From Peptococcaceae bacterium BRH_c4a (GTDB taxonomy: Bacteria > Bacillota > Desulfotomaculia > Desulfotomaculales > Desulfocucumaceae), in assembly GCA_000961585.1 (NCBI GenBank), contig LADN01000035.1:1-64000 (forward strand): 64,000 nt of DNA, read 5' to 3'. The position numbers and the translations under genes are program-made. A model generated the notes under the pieces. The model was not told the origin of the DNA. It saw only the letters and a list, made by a program, of their open reading frames with translations, and did not search any database. Numbering within the stretch: position 1 is the stretch's first letter; each line of letters opens with the position of its first letter. Shown one piece after another: positions 42,873 to 48,648 of this stretch.

Positions 42873-42920
42873 TCTCCCCCTCCTGACCACTACCGTTTTT
42901 GTCCCCACCGGAGAATATTA

Positions 42921-42980
42921 ATAGGATTAATCCTATCACTAATCACCACCATAATTTTTTTTATGATGAATTCTATCACT
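42921..42980 (-). promoter_or_regulatory. Duplicated operator before the DASS gene
   Basis: Two 16-bp direct repeats, GATTAATCCTATCACT (42925-42940) and GATGAATTCTATCACT (42965-42980), agree at 14 of 16 positions and are exactly 40 bp apart. The proximal one overlaps a perfect 16-bp palindrome ATAGGATTAATCCTAT (42921-42936). This looks like a cooperative regulator site about 50 bases upstream of the start. Confidence 0.65.
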
Positions 42981-43012
42981 CCTACTCTTTGAGCACAATA
43001 AATATCCCCAAA

Positions 43013-43040
43013 ATAAAAAACGCAACCCCTAAAGTTGCGA
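43013..43040 (-). terminator. Terminator after the unknown 146-residue gene
   Basis: Minus strand: CGCAAC-TTTAGGG-GTTGCG followed by six T. Confidence 0.8.
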
Positions 43041-43096
43041 TCATTAATAATTTCATTTATTATAAACCCTATTTTTAAAATACTAGCAATAAAAAA

Positions 43097-43537
43097 TCAT
43101 GCATACCTGTATGCTGCGGAAAAATGCGCCATATACATCGGACCTGTCATCTCCCAGTAATATTCAGGCGCCCTTCCGTTTTTCTGCACCTCGTCTATTG
43201 ATATTGGATGGGTACTGATTATAAGGGAACCGCACTCATCTATGCCAATCCTTTCACCGGGACTGACAATTCTGTACGCTCCCTGGTATTTAAGCCTTTG
43301 AAATACATAAACATAACAATCTCCACTGTATAAAGAGGTAATTTTATTCATATTATTAAAGTCTCTAATAGCGGTGTCAGGCACGAGACCGTAACTAAAA
43401 TCTGCATGGTACAAACGGGCAAAGTGATTAATTTCCTTATTTACTAATAAACACCTTAGAAATTCCCAGATTTTTTTTAGGGGCACCGGCAGTTCACCTT
43501 CTAACCCAGGTTCATATCCACGGGATGCTACAGACAT
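43097..43537 (-). CDS. Protein of unknown function, 146 residues
   Basis: Not recognised. ATG 43537 follows GAGGTG by 7 bases and gives MSVASRGYEPG; the frame extends to 43597. The protein is soluble and aromatic-rich, without signal peptide, membrane helix or cysteine motif. Notable stretches are LLVNKEINHFARLYHADFSY, YSGDCYVYVFQRLKYQGAY and PISIDEVQKNGRAPEYYWEM. It has its own terminator and lies between the DASS transporter and the Rex-type promoter, so it is probably monocistronic. Confidence 0.75.
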   Translation of the reverse strand: MSVASRGYEPGLEGELPVPLKKIWEFLRCLLVNKEINHFARLYHADFSYGLVPDTAIRDFNNMNKITSLYSGDCYVYVFQRLKYQGAYRIVSPGERIGIDECGSLIISTHPISIDEVQKNGRAPEYYWEMTGPMYMAHFSAAYRYA

Positions 43538-44006
43538 ATTAATCACCTCAATCAAAGTAACCTTTATATGTTTCAAATCTATTTTTTGAATATTCAAACA
43601 TTCTTTATTAAAATATAATTTGTCACCACATATAATTCAAGTGTGTTTATAGTGAAAGCCATATGCTTGATATTTTTATGATGGTCAGCAAATTCCTTGT
43701 TATTTTTGTCACTATATAGACTGGCTTTTTCCAGCAATCTGCCCTGACTCCACTGACAAAATTTCTAAACAACACTCCACATTCATTTCCATATACACCA
43801 GAGATGCCGCAGGAATCCTTGAATTTACAGCAAAACAATTTATTTATTATTTGTCTGAATTTTTAAACTTTTAGATTTCATGTTGTGAAATATTGCACAA
43901 CATGAATGACTATGCTATAGTTAATTAAAGAAAATAAAAAATGCATAACAGGCAATGCTCAAATATTACATGCTTAAAACATTCGATAAATATAGTAGAG
44001 ATAAAC
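43538..44006. other. AT-rich gap upstream of the transposase-like gene
   Basis: No gene supported. It contains the Rex-type palindrome and plus-strand promoter listed separately (43877-43921). A short minus-strand frame at 43647-43838 lacks a ribosome site. Confidence 0.6.
43877..43921 (+). promoter_or_regulatory. Promoter overlapped by a Rex-type palindrome
   Basis: Perfect 11-bp arms TTCATGTTGTG (43877-43887) and CACAACATGAA (43896-43906) surround loop AAATATTG. The inner 18 bases TTGTGAAATATTGCACAA match the Rex consensus TTGTGAAnnnnTTCACAA except at one position. The same DNA forms a promoter: -35 TTGCAC (43893-43898), 17-bp spacer, -10 TATAGT (43916-43921), reading right. Bound Rex (an NADH/NAD sensor) would block it. 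Rex control of sulfate-reduction genes is known in Desulfovibrio. A different CRP/FNR-type factor is an alternative. Confidence 0.6.
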
Positions 44007-44037
44007 CGTAGTGAAAAATACCGGTAAGTATAGAGCA

Positions 44038-44058
44038 CAAGTTTACCACAAACTTGTG
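44038..44058. repeat. Hairpin before the transposase-like gene
   Basis: ACAAGTTT (44038-44045) and AAACTTGT (44051-44058) are perfect inverted repeats in the leader, 28 bases before the start codon. It may limit read-through translation, as leader hairpins do in some insertion sequences. Confidence 0.6.
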
Positions 44059-44085
44059 TGACAATGAACTAAAGGTGGTGTCACC

Positions 44086-45735
44086 ATGTTTTTCCGAAAA
44101 ATAACCAGCCGCACTAAAGGCAAAGAATATACTTACTTAAAACTAATCGAGAATTACAGAGAAGGCAACAAAGTAAAACAGAGAGTGATTGCCAATCTGG
44201 GCAACCTTGAGAGTCTAACCCCAGAGAAGGTGCAGGTATTGATATCCGGTCTCTCAAGAATCTGCGGTGTTTCCCATAGCTCTACCCAGCTTGAAGCCAA
44301 GAAAGTATTGCGCTACGGAGAAGTTTTGGCTATTCATAGTATATGGGATACGCTTCGTTTAACGACGGCCATCGAAAAAGCCATTGAAAATCAAATGAAT
44401 GATTTTAATGTACCCCTCTTAGTAGAATTAATGACTCTGGACCAGATGATTAAACCTCCAAGCAAGCAGGCTATTAATGACTGGTACGAATTCCTTGGCC
44501 TGCCTGAAATGGAAAATAACGAACTATACCCTCATTATTTTTATAACACACTGGACACTCTGGCAGAAGCAAAGTACCACATTGAAGGGAACATTTTTAA
44601 AAATATAACACGCTTATTTCCTATAAACACAGATTTTGCTTTTTGCCGTTTGTCTACCTGCACATTCGAGCCTCCCTCCCGCCCTGAACTCCAGTCGACC
44701 ATTTACGGCAAATACATTCTGGAGGAACCGGATGACATTAAAAAAGTAGACTTCGGGATAGTGGCAAGCAGTGACGGAATACCCTTTGGTCACTGGGTGT
44801 TTCAAAGTCTCCAATTGGACTTCAGAGATATGCTGAAATATTTAAAAAATAACTACGGCATTAAAAAATGCATCTATATAGGCGATCGCAATGTAACTGC
44901 CAACACAACCCTGGAACTTCTAGTAGCACATGGCTATGAGTATATTGCAAGTCGTAAGCTATGGTACAATCAAGAACGAGATTTACTATACCGAGAACAG
45001 ATTATCAGAAAAAAAGGCTTCACTGAGTTAAATGAAAGACTTTGGTTTAAAGAAGTAACATCGGGTGATGTGCGCCACCTTTTATGCTATGACCTTCAAA
45101 GCGCAAAGCATAAGGGCGATTTGCTTGAAGATCAACTTAGAACCGTTGAACATAATTTTAATAACATGCAAAAAACCATTAACGAAAGACCACATAAATC
45201 AAACAAGCCCGCATTTAACAAAAACTCGCCTGTCTTTAAAAACAGCTATTGCATCAAATATTTTGAGTGGTACTACAATGAAAGCACCCGGCAGTTATAC
45301 TACCAACGCAAGGATGATCTTATTGAACTGGAACACCAACAAGCAGGGATGTTTCTCCTGGAAACAAACTCAAGGCTTTTGAGCGGAAAGAAAATTCTGG
45401 AGTCGTATATTAACACGGCCCAACTGGGGGAACCCTTCCGCATCAACAACAGTTTCTCAGCCTTACCAAGCCCGTTTTATGTAGATACAAACATATCAGC
45501 CAACATCTTTATATGCCTGCTGGCGGCAATTCTCGAAAAAACCATGTCACAACTACTTAACCGGGCGGGAATAAACCTTCACCCTCGTCAAGCACTGGAA
45601 TTACTAGAAGAGATCAAGTTGTTCGTATACCAACTTGACGACCAGGAGGTGAAATCTATAACAAAAATACCCAAAGATCAAGAGGCAATTCTAAGGGCAA
45701 TTGGAGTAGATACTCTGCAGCGTACAATAATTTAA
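44086..45735 (+). CDS. IS1634-like transposase, catalytic residues apparently lost
   Basis: An uninterrupted 549-residue relative of IS1634-type DDE transposases, with the N-terminal signature GKEYTYLKLIENYREGNKVKQRVIANLG. Placing family motifs by eye: the first-Asp segment (usually YDVTTLYFE) reads FCRLSTCTFE, with R for D. The second (ADRGM type) reads YIGDRNVTANTTL and keeps D. The glutamate segment (usually QVEExFRxLK) reads QLGEPFRINN, with G for E and N for K. The start has an AGGTGG site. It is either an inactive transposase, a domesticated protein, or a divergent subgroup whose active site I misplaced. Confidence 0.75.
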   Translation: MFFRKITSRTKGKEYTYLKLIENYREGNKVKQRVIANLGNLESLTPEKVQVLISGLSRICGVSHSSTQLEAKKVLRYGEVLAIHSIWDTLRLTTAIEKAIENQMNDFNVPLLVELMTLDQMIKPPSKQAINDWYEFLGLPEMENNELYPHYFYNTLDTLAEAKYHIEGNIFKNITRLFPINTDFAFCRLSTCTFEPPSRPELQSTIYGKYILEEPDDIKKVDFGIVASSDGIPFGHWVFQSLQLDFRDMLKYLKNNYGIKKCIYIGDRNVTANTTLELLVAHGYEYIASRKLWYNQERDLLYREQIIRKKGFTELNERLWFKEVTSGDVRHLLCYDLQSAKHKGDLLEDQLRTVEHNFNNMQKTINERPHKSNKPAFNKNSPVFKNSYCIKYFEWYYNESTRQLYYQRKDDLIELEHQQAGMFLLETNSRLLSGKKILESYINTAQLGEPFRINNSFSALPSPFYVDTNISANIFICLLAAILEKTMSQLLNRAGINLHPRQALELLEEIKLFVYQLDDQEVKSITKIPKDQEAILRAIGVDTLQRTII

Positions 45736-46073
45736 CATGCCCTTCCGGCTACCCGTAGTGACAATTTATCTGCGCCTACAAAGAACTGGCTTGAAATTCA
45801 GCCAATCAGTTGCGACCTGATTGGCAACCATTAAAAAACCATAAGTGGGACTCTTTGAATGTAATTATAGCATGACACATCTAATATTACAAGGCTTTAT
45901 TTAACATTGTTGTCACTACGCGAGCGAATGGCTGAAGAGTATCTGCCTGTCAATTTCAGAGGGGGTGAGGTAAAAAAAGCATACGGCACAAGCAAAAAAG
46001 TAAAATATGGGGTAGTGACTAACTTTAAATTTTATATTCATGTGAGTGTTTATTGAGGGAGGTTAGAAAAAAA
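45736..46073. other. Gap between transposase-like gene and tauE operon
   Basis: It holds the perfect hairpin GCCAATCAG/CTGATTGGC (45801-45825) and the 11-bp inverted repeat CGTAGTGACAA (45754-45764 with 45910-45920). A further GTAGTGAC occurs at 46014. A frame at 45928-46056 (42 codons) has no ribosome site and is not called. Confidence 0.6.
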
Positions 46074-47369
46074 ATGAGATTTTTTTATGATTCCTTGATG
46101 GCAGCGTCCAGAGCGCACGCCCGATGGGAGATTGAAATATCCAATACCATTTTTAGAGACAGAAAAAAAATGTTAATATTGTTGGTTCTCTTTTTACCGC
46201 TTCTAATACCTGCCGTAGTGCATGCGGCAGGAACCCTACCAGGTTTTATAGGAGGGAAATCTGCGTACGGACCGTCATTCTATACTCCTGAAATATTTTA
46301 CGGTTCTATGGCTGTGGGTCTTATCGCGGGCTTAATCACCGGCTGCATAGGCGCCGGCGGAGGCTTTGTGATTACCCCGGCGCTGATGAGCCTGGGAGTT
46401 AAGGGTATTCTTGCTGTTGGTACTGATATGTTTCACATTTTTGCAAAGGCCATCATGGGAACAACCATACACAAAAAACTCGGCAATGTGCACGTAGGTT
46501 TGGCCATAGCATTTCTGGTGGGTTCAGGTTTTGGGGTCACCGGCGGAGGAATTCTAAACCGGGAGTTGTTCAATTATAACCCGGTTTTAAGCAACCTGGT
46601 GATAAGCGCTATCTACGTCGTTATGCTGGGATTCCTGGGTTTCTATGCCCTATATGACTATCTTAAAGCCGTAAAAAGCACATCATCCCCGGATCACGGC
46701 GATGCCCACGGCGGTCCCTCAGGCTTGACCAACCTGGCCGTAAAGGTACAGTCCATTAACATTCCACCGATGATTACCTTCGATGAAGACATTACTCCTG
46801 GCGGAAGGAAGGTTTCCGGCGTATTCGTGGCCATTTGCGGCGCTGTTGTAGGCTTCATGGCAGCCATATTGGGCGTTGGCGGCGGCTTCCTGACCTTCCC
46901 GGCGTTCGTTTACGTGCTTGGAGTATCGTCCTTCACCACTGTCGGCACCGACATTTTACAAATAATTTTCACCGCAGGCTACGGCTCCATCTCGCAATAC
47001 GCCGTATACGGCTACGTTTTCTACACCCTGGCAATGGGCATGCTGATCGGATCCCTGGTAGGCGTTCAACTGGGCGCTATCACAACCAAGGTTGTGCCCG
47101 GCGTTAAAATCAGGGCGTTTTATGCAGTTGCCATTCTTGCAGGCTTCATCAACAGACTCTTTTCCCTGCCGGAAAGCCTTGCAAAGATGGAATACATCAA
47201 GATGGCCCCTTCTACTACAAAAGCTATAGAAACTGCCGGATCCATAATATTTTTCGGCATAGTGGGTGTTTTTGCGGTCTGGATTATACTTACATTCATT
47301 CGCAATTTACCAAAGCTCCGGGCGGAGTCACAGGCTACCGCAGCCCCAGGGAAAGGAGTGAGCCGCTAA
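46074..47369 (+). CDS. TauE/SafE-family anion permease
   Basis: A 431-residue membrane protein of the sulfite exporter TauE/SafE family (COG0730). It has two homologous halves with glycine-rich motifs: LITGCIGAGGGFVITPALMSLGV and AAILGVGGGFLTFPAFVYVLGV, each followed by VGTDxxxIxF. A basic, probably cytoplasmic N-terminal extension precedes a first helix that ends near VVHAAG. Relatives in sulfate reducers are proposed to move sulfate, sulfite or sulfonates. ATG 46074 follows GGGAGG. It heads a three-gene operon. Confidence 0.88.
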   Translation: MRFFYDSLMAASRAHARWEIEISNTIFRDRKKMLILLVLFLPLLIPAVVHAAGTLPGFIGGKSAYGPSFYTPEIFYGSMAVGLIAGLITGCIGAGGGFVITPALMSLGVKGILAVGTDMFHIFAKAIMGTTIHKKLGNVHVGLAIAFLVGSGFGVTGGGILNRELFNYNPVLSNLVISAIYVVMLGFLGFYALYDYLKAVKSTSSPDHGDAHGGPSGLTNLAVKVQSINIPPMITFDEDITPGGRKVSGVFVAICGAVVGFMAAILGVGGGFLTFPAFVYVLGVSSFTTVGTDILQIIFTAGYGSISQYAVYGYVFYTLAMGMLIGSLVGVQLGAITTKVVPGVKIRAFYAVAILAGFINRLFSLPESLAKMEYIKMAPSTTKAIETAGSIIFFGIVGVFAVWIILTFIRNLPKLRAESQATAAPGKGVSR

Positions 47370-47370
47370 T

Positions 47371-48081
47371 ATGATAAGGAATAGTAAAACATTCATAATA
47401 GGGTTAGTTCTGATGATATCTTTTTGTGGAGTATTCGCCTACATAATGTCGCCCTCCTTTGAAGGCGGCAGAAACGGCCTCCAGTACTCCGACGACATGT
47501 TCAACTCACTTTCCAAGGGATCTGCTTATTTTATTGGTGAGGAAAAAAGGAAGGCTGAAAAACAGGTTGGCAGCAGTATCGATGTCACCATAAAGGCTTC
47601 CGACAAGGCAGAAGCTGAAAAATGGGGCAAGTTATTCTCAATAGCCAGTGCTTCAGTTATGATTGACGCCGAGAAGGTATCCATTAAAGGCGACCTTGGC
47701 AAAATGATGACCGCAACTCTGGACGATAGCGACGCCATGTATAACAACAATTCAGCTAAACTTAAAAACAAGTACGGTTACGAAGCCCGGGAAACCATGT
47801 ACGCCTGGTACAGCGCTTTCAAAAAAGTTGACACAGAGTTAAAGAACCAGAAGAAATTTAAAGAATCCGGCGCTATTGGCAGCTTTATGAAAAAAGCTGT
47901 AGAACCTTCCTACAACTACTACAATATTGAAATCAAATATGTTAGAGACAATGTCGGTACAGTTGTATTTATGCTTGTTTTCTACGTTGTCTACACACTA
48001 TGGTACGGTTTCGCAATTTATTACCTGTTCGATGGGTTAGGCATCAGCGTAACCAAGGCTGCCAAGAAATCAGAAGCTTAG
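47371..48081 (+). CDS. Membrane protein of unknown function in the tauE operon
   Basis: A 236-residue protein with one N-terminal helix (about 8-26) and one C-terminal helix (about 197-220), so most of it (about 27-195) would lie on one face of the membrane, probably outside. That loop is lysine-, serine- and aspartate-rich with no cysteine motif. It begins one base after the tauE stop, so the two are very likely cotranslated. I recognise no family; a periplasmic-side partner or regulator of the permease is an inference. Confidence 0.8.
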   Translation: MIRNSKTFIIGLVLMISFCGVFAYIMSPSFEGGRNGLQYSDDMFNSLSKGSAYFIGEEKRKAEKQVGSSIDVTIKASDKAEAEKWGKLFSIASASVMIDAEKVSIKGDLGKMMTATLDDSDAMYNNNSAKLKNKYGYEARETMYAWYSAFKKVDTELKNQKKFKESGAIGSFMKKAVEPSYNYYNIEIKYVRDNVGTVVFMLVFYVVYTLWYGFAIYYLFDGLGISVTKAAKKSEA

Positions 48082-48111: not shown

Positions 48112-48648
48112 ATGGAAAAATCAGTTAAGGACATCATGATCCCCATAGAGAAATTTCCCACCATACCTGCTGGGAGCAGCGTAAAAGAGGTGTTGGGTGT
48201 ATTGAGAAAAGCTATGGAGTCTGGAAATAACGCCACTCTTCTGGTAATGGAAAATAATACACTGGCAGGAATTCTTAGCTTTAGAGAAATTCTGCAGGCT
48301 GTAAACCCGGTGGTCTTCAAAGAGGGCATCTATCGCGGCTGGTCGGTTACGGAGGAATTGTCGGTACCGTTATTCCTGAATGGTTTTTTTACTGAAAAAT
48401 GCAGGGAAATTTCAAACCTTGAGGTAAGGGATGTTATGAGGCCGGCAAACCAGTTTCTAAACTTAAAGGATACTCTGATGAAGGCCTTGCACGCTTTTGT
48501 CACAAATGGATTTGAAGCCGTTCCTGTTTGGCAGGACGGACGCATAGTAGGAATGGTCGGCCCTATGGAAGTAATTGGTGAAATGGCTGCTATTTTAACA
48601 GAAATCTCTTACGATATACGTGACGGGAAAAAGCTAGTAGCAGGGTAA
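48112..48648 (+). CDS. CBS-domain pair protein
   Basis: A 178-residue soluble protein with two CBS motifs: VKDIMIPIEKFPTIPAGSSVKEVL near the N terminus and VRDVMRPANQFLNLKDTLMKAL with GFEAVPVWQDGRIVGMVG in the second half. Such Bateman modules bind adenine nucleotides or SAM. In an operon with an anion permease it could sense ATP, AMP or APS and gate transport; that is inference. The ribosome site is GGAGG. A terminator follows. Confidence 0.88.
   Translation: MEKSVKDIMIPIEKFPTIPAGSSVKEVLGVLRKAMESGNNATLLVMENNTLAGILSFREILQAVNPVVFKEGIYRGWSVTEELSVPLFLNGFFTEKCREISNLEVRDVMRPANQFLNLKDTLMKALHAFVTNGFEAVPVWQDGRIVGMVGPMEVIGEMAAILTEISYDIRDGKKLVAG

Follow-up and report, generated by a model that had tools for sequence, protein, structure and literature searches.

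Transposase-derived regulators are well known in eukaryotes, and the Tn5 inhibitor is known to control transposition rather than host genes. The bacterial precedent that we found in the literature is the RNA-guided TldR group, nuclease-dead repressors derived from TnpB, for which regulation has been proven and a guide RNA is used (PMC13418256). We found no description of a catalytically dead family derived from IS1634 transposases in the open-access papers searched, and a review devoted to the sulfate transporters of sulfate reducers (PMC5840216), which places transporters near sat/aprAB, does not contain the word transposase. The gene described here lies at positions 44086–45735 (+ strand) of a 64,000-nucleotide stretch of contig LADN01000035.1 from Peptococcaceae bacterium BRH_c4a, the whole of which we call the window. 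On the evidence of its open reading frame, a profile match, alignment and dN/dS, it is a catalytically dead, IS1634-derived gene of 549 aa, and its product is a candidate DNA-binding regulator.

An IS1634-derived gene that has lost catalytic residues

The gene starts with an ATG behind a GGTGG-type ribosome site, and its 549-codon frame is unbroken, as the sequence-only reading of this DNA had noted when it described a full-length frame with a good ribosome site. The NCBIfam model NF033559 (IS1634 family transposase) covers residues 30–542 of the protein (E=3.4e-60; 204 bits, cut-off 100), and a Pfam search of the 549-aa sequence matched no family. In an alignment with intact IS1634 transposases, the first catalytic Asp is replaced by Arg188 (44647–44649, +), the catalytic Glu by Gly448 (45427–45429, +) and the conserved Lys after the Glu by Asn455 (45448–45450, +), the same three substitutions that had been picked out by eye in that reading; D267, at the position of the second Asp (44884–44886, +), is the only one of the four that remains. 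The reading had also proposed a profile alignment, a search for copies and dN/dS estimates. Profile alignment placed no intact D/D/E elsewhere in the 549-aa protein. In an intact IS1634-type ORF that the genome carries on a different contig (L003, G000:C66), D, D and E were all recovered, and this internal control indicates that the alignment does detect the triad where it is present. Neither a second copy of the gene nor identical transposed copies were found in its own genome. No inverted-repeat pair resembling element ends, such as active relatives have, was found around the gene (43590–46060).

The family was traced through 113 genomes of the host order; a search of the class gave the same 113. 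Matches at E<1e-60 are present in 32 of these genomes, each with exactly one full-length member and zero stops. Relatives occur in Desulfofundulus thermosubterraneus, Desulfofundulus australicus, Desulfocucumis palustris, a Desulfotomaculum, a Desulfovirgula MAG and Peptococcaceae MAGs including BICA1-7, whose orthologue is 67% identical to the window protein, and further families of the class hold distant members at ~20–27% identity. Among 398 genomes from across the phylum and outside the class, no family member scored above the threshold used; of two matches outside the class, one was a three-copy element and the other a sequence that groups with intact transposases in the tree. Within a set of 48 proteins, the first Asp is present in 0 of 33 dead relatives compared with 15 of 15 intact IS1634 transposases, and the Glu in 0 of 33 compared with 14 of 14. 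Many different residues fill these two positions in the dead relatives, and the second Asp is retained in 17 of the 33. A single branch of a maximum-likelihood tree parts the dead from the intact set (SH-aLRT 99, in a tree with a few long branches and a provisional root), consistent with a catalytic loss that arose once.

Sequence change within the family is constrained. Nei-Gojobori dN/dS ranges from 0.06 to 0.29 among orthologue pairs with finite dS, and is 0.14 between the window gene and its closest orthologue (67% identical). The first 65 codons have a dN several-fold slower than the rest of the gene and, in a set of 38 full-length members with identities as low as ~20%, the 17 invariant columns all fall in residues 2–56; together, these two observations indicate that it is above all the N-terminal domain that the host keeps. 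This domain (residues 1–60; 44086–44265, +) is predicted to fold as beta-beta-beta-alpha, is the sole part with family-wide invariant residues and is common to a set of short paralogues described below. Its top Foldseek match, 3jtz, an integrase arm-type DNA-binding domain, is weak (E=0.1, VIA Z 3.3). For the model of the whole protein (pLDDT 79.6, pTM 0.74), Tn5 transposase is a structural match (Foldseek E=1e-5; VIA Z 13.4 for residues 85–492), as is the Tn5 inhibitor protein 1b7e (VIA Z 10.1). The match to Tn5 transposase indicates that the transposase body has been kept, though it cannot carry the triad. Comparison across genomes shows the dead IS1634-derived protein to be the product of a single-copy, vertically inherited host gene, whose catalytic Asp and Glu were lost in an ancestor of the class.

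The transporter neighbourhood and a candidate operator

The next gene downstream in the window encodes a TauE/SafE-type anion transporter (PF01925; 46053–47369, +). It is followed by a gene for a 236-aa protein without a Pfam match (47371–48081, +), which stands beside TauE in many genomes of the class and is possibly a partner of the transporter, and by one for a CBS-domain protein (48112–48648, +) that is conserved in the neighbourhood. An SLC13/DASS transporter gene (PF00939; 41361–42908, −), likewise conserved, lies on the opposite side from TauE, as does a gene for a 166-aa protein without a Pfam match (43097–43597, −), which is conserved in several such neighbourhoods and preceded by an operator-like site. 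The neighbouring genes of the window then encode HdrB/HdrC-like, Qmo-like and further sulfate-reduction proteins. Across the family, TauE or SLC13 lies within three genes of the dead gene in 28 of 38 loci, including those of members at 20–25% identity, and several of the remaining 10 loci retain CBS, Hdr and Qmo genes within 10 kb; at L075–L078 neither transporter is nearby, and the CBS, Hdr and Qmo genes are also missing within 10 kb. In the f11 genomes (L094, L095, L098), the dead gene, TauE and the gene for the 236-aa protein form tandem units. Shorter proteins also exist (~310–340 aa where intact), whose recognisable similarity to the family is limited to the N-terminal domain. All 10 short paralogues examined stand first in an operon that includes an SLC13 transporter gene and, in most cases, one for a CitMHS or C8-type transporter, and a short paralogue in the window's own genome (G000:C97:65167-65346; L099 8921–9802 plus upstream sequence) lies directly upstream of SLC13 and CitMHS transporter genes.

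An unbiased comparison of k-mers in the 350 bp upstream of the gene with those in the rest of the loci yielded two motifs, TTGTGAAATATTGCACAA and GTAGTGACAA. The second of these, our candidate operator, occurs twice in the spacer between the gene and TauE (45755–45764, +; 45910–45919, −), as a convergent pair ~155 bp apart. This spacer is poorly conserved between the window and its sister species BICA1-7 apart from islands, and both sites fall in identical islands, of 14 and 12 bp respectively, that are among the longest. A third, weaker operator-like site, GTAGTGACTA, precedes TauE (46012–46021, +), with its GTAGTG core kept in the sister species. Two more stand on the other side of the gene: a candidate operator GTGGTGACAA, a variant of GTAGTGACAA, upstream of the 166-aa ORF (43620–43629, −), and, ahead of the dead transposase gene itself, the operator-like site GTAGTGAAAA (44008–44017, +).

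The motif is concentrated around the gene. Over 23 representative loci, GTAGTGACA has 44 intergenic matches versus 4 genic ones, while 300 shuffled versions gave a mean of 0.45 intergenic matches and a maximum of 4. In 22 genomes, 17 of the 104 GTAGTGACAA sites found genome-wide lie within 3 kb of the gene versus 0.22 expected, a 77-fold excess, and two of the five sites in the window genome are those in the gene–TauE spacer. A strict site stands upstream of the TauE homologue in 15 of 19 gene-bearing loci (f11 left out) versus 4 of 21 elsewhere (Fisher p=0.0003), a test that ignores kinship among the genomes. All four exceptions are in genomes that carry a family member, and the TauE homologues of genomes that lack the family have no GTAGTGACAA in front of them. 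For the motif tests as a whole, the loci used for discovery and for testing largely overlap, and related genomes are non-independent. The motif recurs in most short-paralogue operons, where the identifiable common element is the N-terminal domain. Counted over whole genomes, GTAGTGACAA is no more frequent where the gene is present, which argues for a local operator and leaves a large regulon unsupported.

Convergent pairs of sites are ~90 or 156–176 bp apart, and other sites are direct or divergent; this mixture of orientations and spacings disfavours an RNA stem as the cause of the conservation. An Rfam search of 42900–46500 matched no RNA family. Another convergent GTAGTGACAA pair, 138 bp apart, was observed at L134 5405 and 5544 (G060:C25:10404 and 10542), on a contig in which we did not find the dead transposase gene. 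In the f11 genomes, strict GTAGTGACAA sites are mostly missing upstream of TauE despite the adjacent gene. The f11 operator may have drifted, and ATGACAAA was seen there by eye.

The other motif, TTGTGAAATATTGCACAA, overlaps a conserved promoter. This core also stands upstream of many orthologues, and it is similar to the HcpR consensus TTGTGANNNNNNTCACAA that has been described for sat and apsAB (PMC545781). In the window it is contained in a 30-bp near-perfect palindrome (TTCATGTTGTGAAAT/ATTGCACAACATGAA; 43877–43906), a CRP/FNR-type (HcpR-like) box over the TTGCAC-N17-TATAGT promoter of the dead transposase gene. Between this promoter and the gene lies a further palindrome, CACAAGTTT-ACCAC-AAACTTGTG (window 44036–44058), each arm of which is like the ends of active IS1634 elements; it was not seen upstream of the closest orthologue. 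Intact elements of the class have ends such as CTCAAGTTTGAAACTTT, and the candidate operator with its flank, CCGTAGTGACAACTTT, resembles these if two bases are skipped, scoring above all 2000 shuffles; because the ends are mutually related and the flank was picked by eye, we take this likeness as a lead only.

A proposed regulator and its alternatives

We consider it probable that the protein is a domesticated, catalytically dead DDE transposase that acts as a local DNA-binding regulator of what is presumably anion transport. An ancestral IS1634-family DDE transposase lost its catalytic Asp and Glu and stayed beside sulfur/anion transporter genes. Its N-terminal beta-beta-beta-alpha domain, which may derive from the part that recognised transposon ends, would bind the GTAGTGACAA sites that surround its own gene and the transporter operons next to it, and the Tn5-like remainder could serve as a dimerisation or scaffold body that bridges paired convergent sites. 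The simplest guess is repression through the bridging of the two convergent sites in the gene–TauE spacer. The HcpR-like box in the gene's own promoter may tie the level of the protein to sulfate-reduction physiology. The sequence-only reading had suggested that the frame is maintained because selection favours a different role in the transporter region, for instance DNA binding; the putative binding role agrees with the purifying selection seen in the dN/dS values, the family-wide loss of catalytic residues, the single copy, the neighbourhood, the conservation of the N-terminal domain and the candidate operator.

A broader proposal, which we put forward tentatively and with more doubt than conviction, is that a regulator family arose once in the class from a DDE transposase. 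It would have kept the end-binding domain as the recognition sequence turned into the operator GTAGTGACAA, still like IS1634 ends, and its full-length and truncated forms would each have an anion-transporter operon under their control, in part through the bridging of paired sites, much as the ancestral protein bridged transposon ends.

The protein might instead be domesticated for a structural, RNA-binding or protein-binding role, with GTAGTGACAA serving some other regulator of these operons as its operator. The Tn5-like fold has been kept whole, which goes beyond what a minimal regulator requires; the HcpR-like box implies that at least one further regulator probably acts at this locus, and most f11 loci are without strict motif sites. 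However, the motif tracks the N-terminal domain into the operons of the short paralogues, where no other common DNA-binding candidate was noticed, and it does not precede TauE in genomes that lack the family; moreover, invariance is restricted to that same domain. We regard such a role as unlikely, if worth keeping in mind.

It is much less probable that the protein inhibits related active IS1634 elements by occupying their ends, as the Tn5 inhibitor protein does. An inhibitor would have no need to adjoin transporters in so many lineages, and the active elements that were read showed no GTAGTGACA at their ends, even though the protein has the fold of Tn5 and of its inhibitor (1b7e, Z 10.1), some genomes with the gene also hold active IS1634 elements and the operator is slightly like IS1634 ends.

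That the protein remains a transposase, either with different acidic residues in the catalytic role or with an intact relative moving it in trans, we find scarcely credible. Although D267 is kept, other acidic residues are present and the same genome holds an intact IS1634-type ORF, no terminal inverted repeats bracket the gene, each carrying genome has one full-length copy, the first Asp and the Glu have been swapped for many different residues, and the gene neighbourhood is conserved rather than mobile. An ordinary decaying IS remnant that has yet to gain stops, of which the loss of catalytic residues would be the early look and the shortening of a few distant members (L159, L160) a further trace, is refuted by the selection and distribution results, namely dN/dS of ~0.1–0.2, an open frame in every orthologue, and conservation of both gene and neighbourhood across the class.

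Comparison with known systems

If the protein is indeed a domesticated regulator, Gram-positive sulfate reducers would gain a first candidate for a regulator of sulfate/anion transport, and the family would provide an intermediate stage at which the step from transposon end to operator could be tested directly. The complete genome G077 (L161–L164), of the Desulfofundulus group, carries several near-identical intact IS1634 copies with CTCAAGTTTGAAACTTT ends as well as a single dead member, and is a good test bed for cross-talk between the two.

With the IS1634 family transposases, the dead family shares a sequence match over nearly the whole length, the Tn5-like fold and the N-terminal region. 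It differs from them in the loss of the first Asp, the Glu and often the Lys, in its single copy, in having no terminal inverted repeats and in its conserved neighbourhood. As it lacks the defining features of catalysis and mobility, the dead family should not be filed as a transposase; the current profile scores its members as IS1634 transposases, and they are thus probably so annotated. The predicted fold is also like those of Tn5 transposase (1mus) and its inhibitor (1b7e), to which the dead family adds the N-terminal domain of residues 1–60 and from which it differs in having no catalytic triad. The eukaryotic ALP1 and ALP2 proteins (PMC7282668) are domesticated transposases without catalysis as well, but they come from other superfamilies and have chromatin roles.

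Closest in kind is TldR (PMC13418256), in which an inactivated transposon protein beside non-transposon bacterial genes is likewise used as a regulator. TldR derives from an RNA-guided nuclease, whereas the dead IS1634 family has its origin in an unrelated enzyme, a DDE transposase, and would recognise DNA directly, with no guide RNA apparent and with a regulatory role that is proposed here. If this role is correct, a bacterial regulator family derived from a DDE transposase and equipped with a candidate operator would represent, beside TldR, a new route to bacterial regulators.
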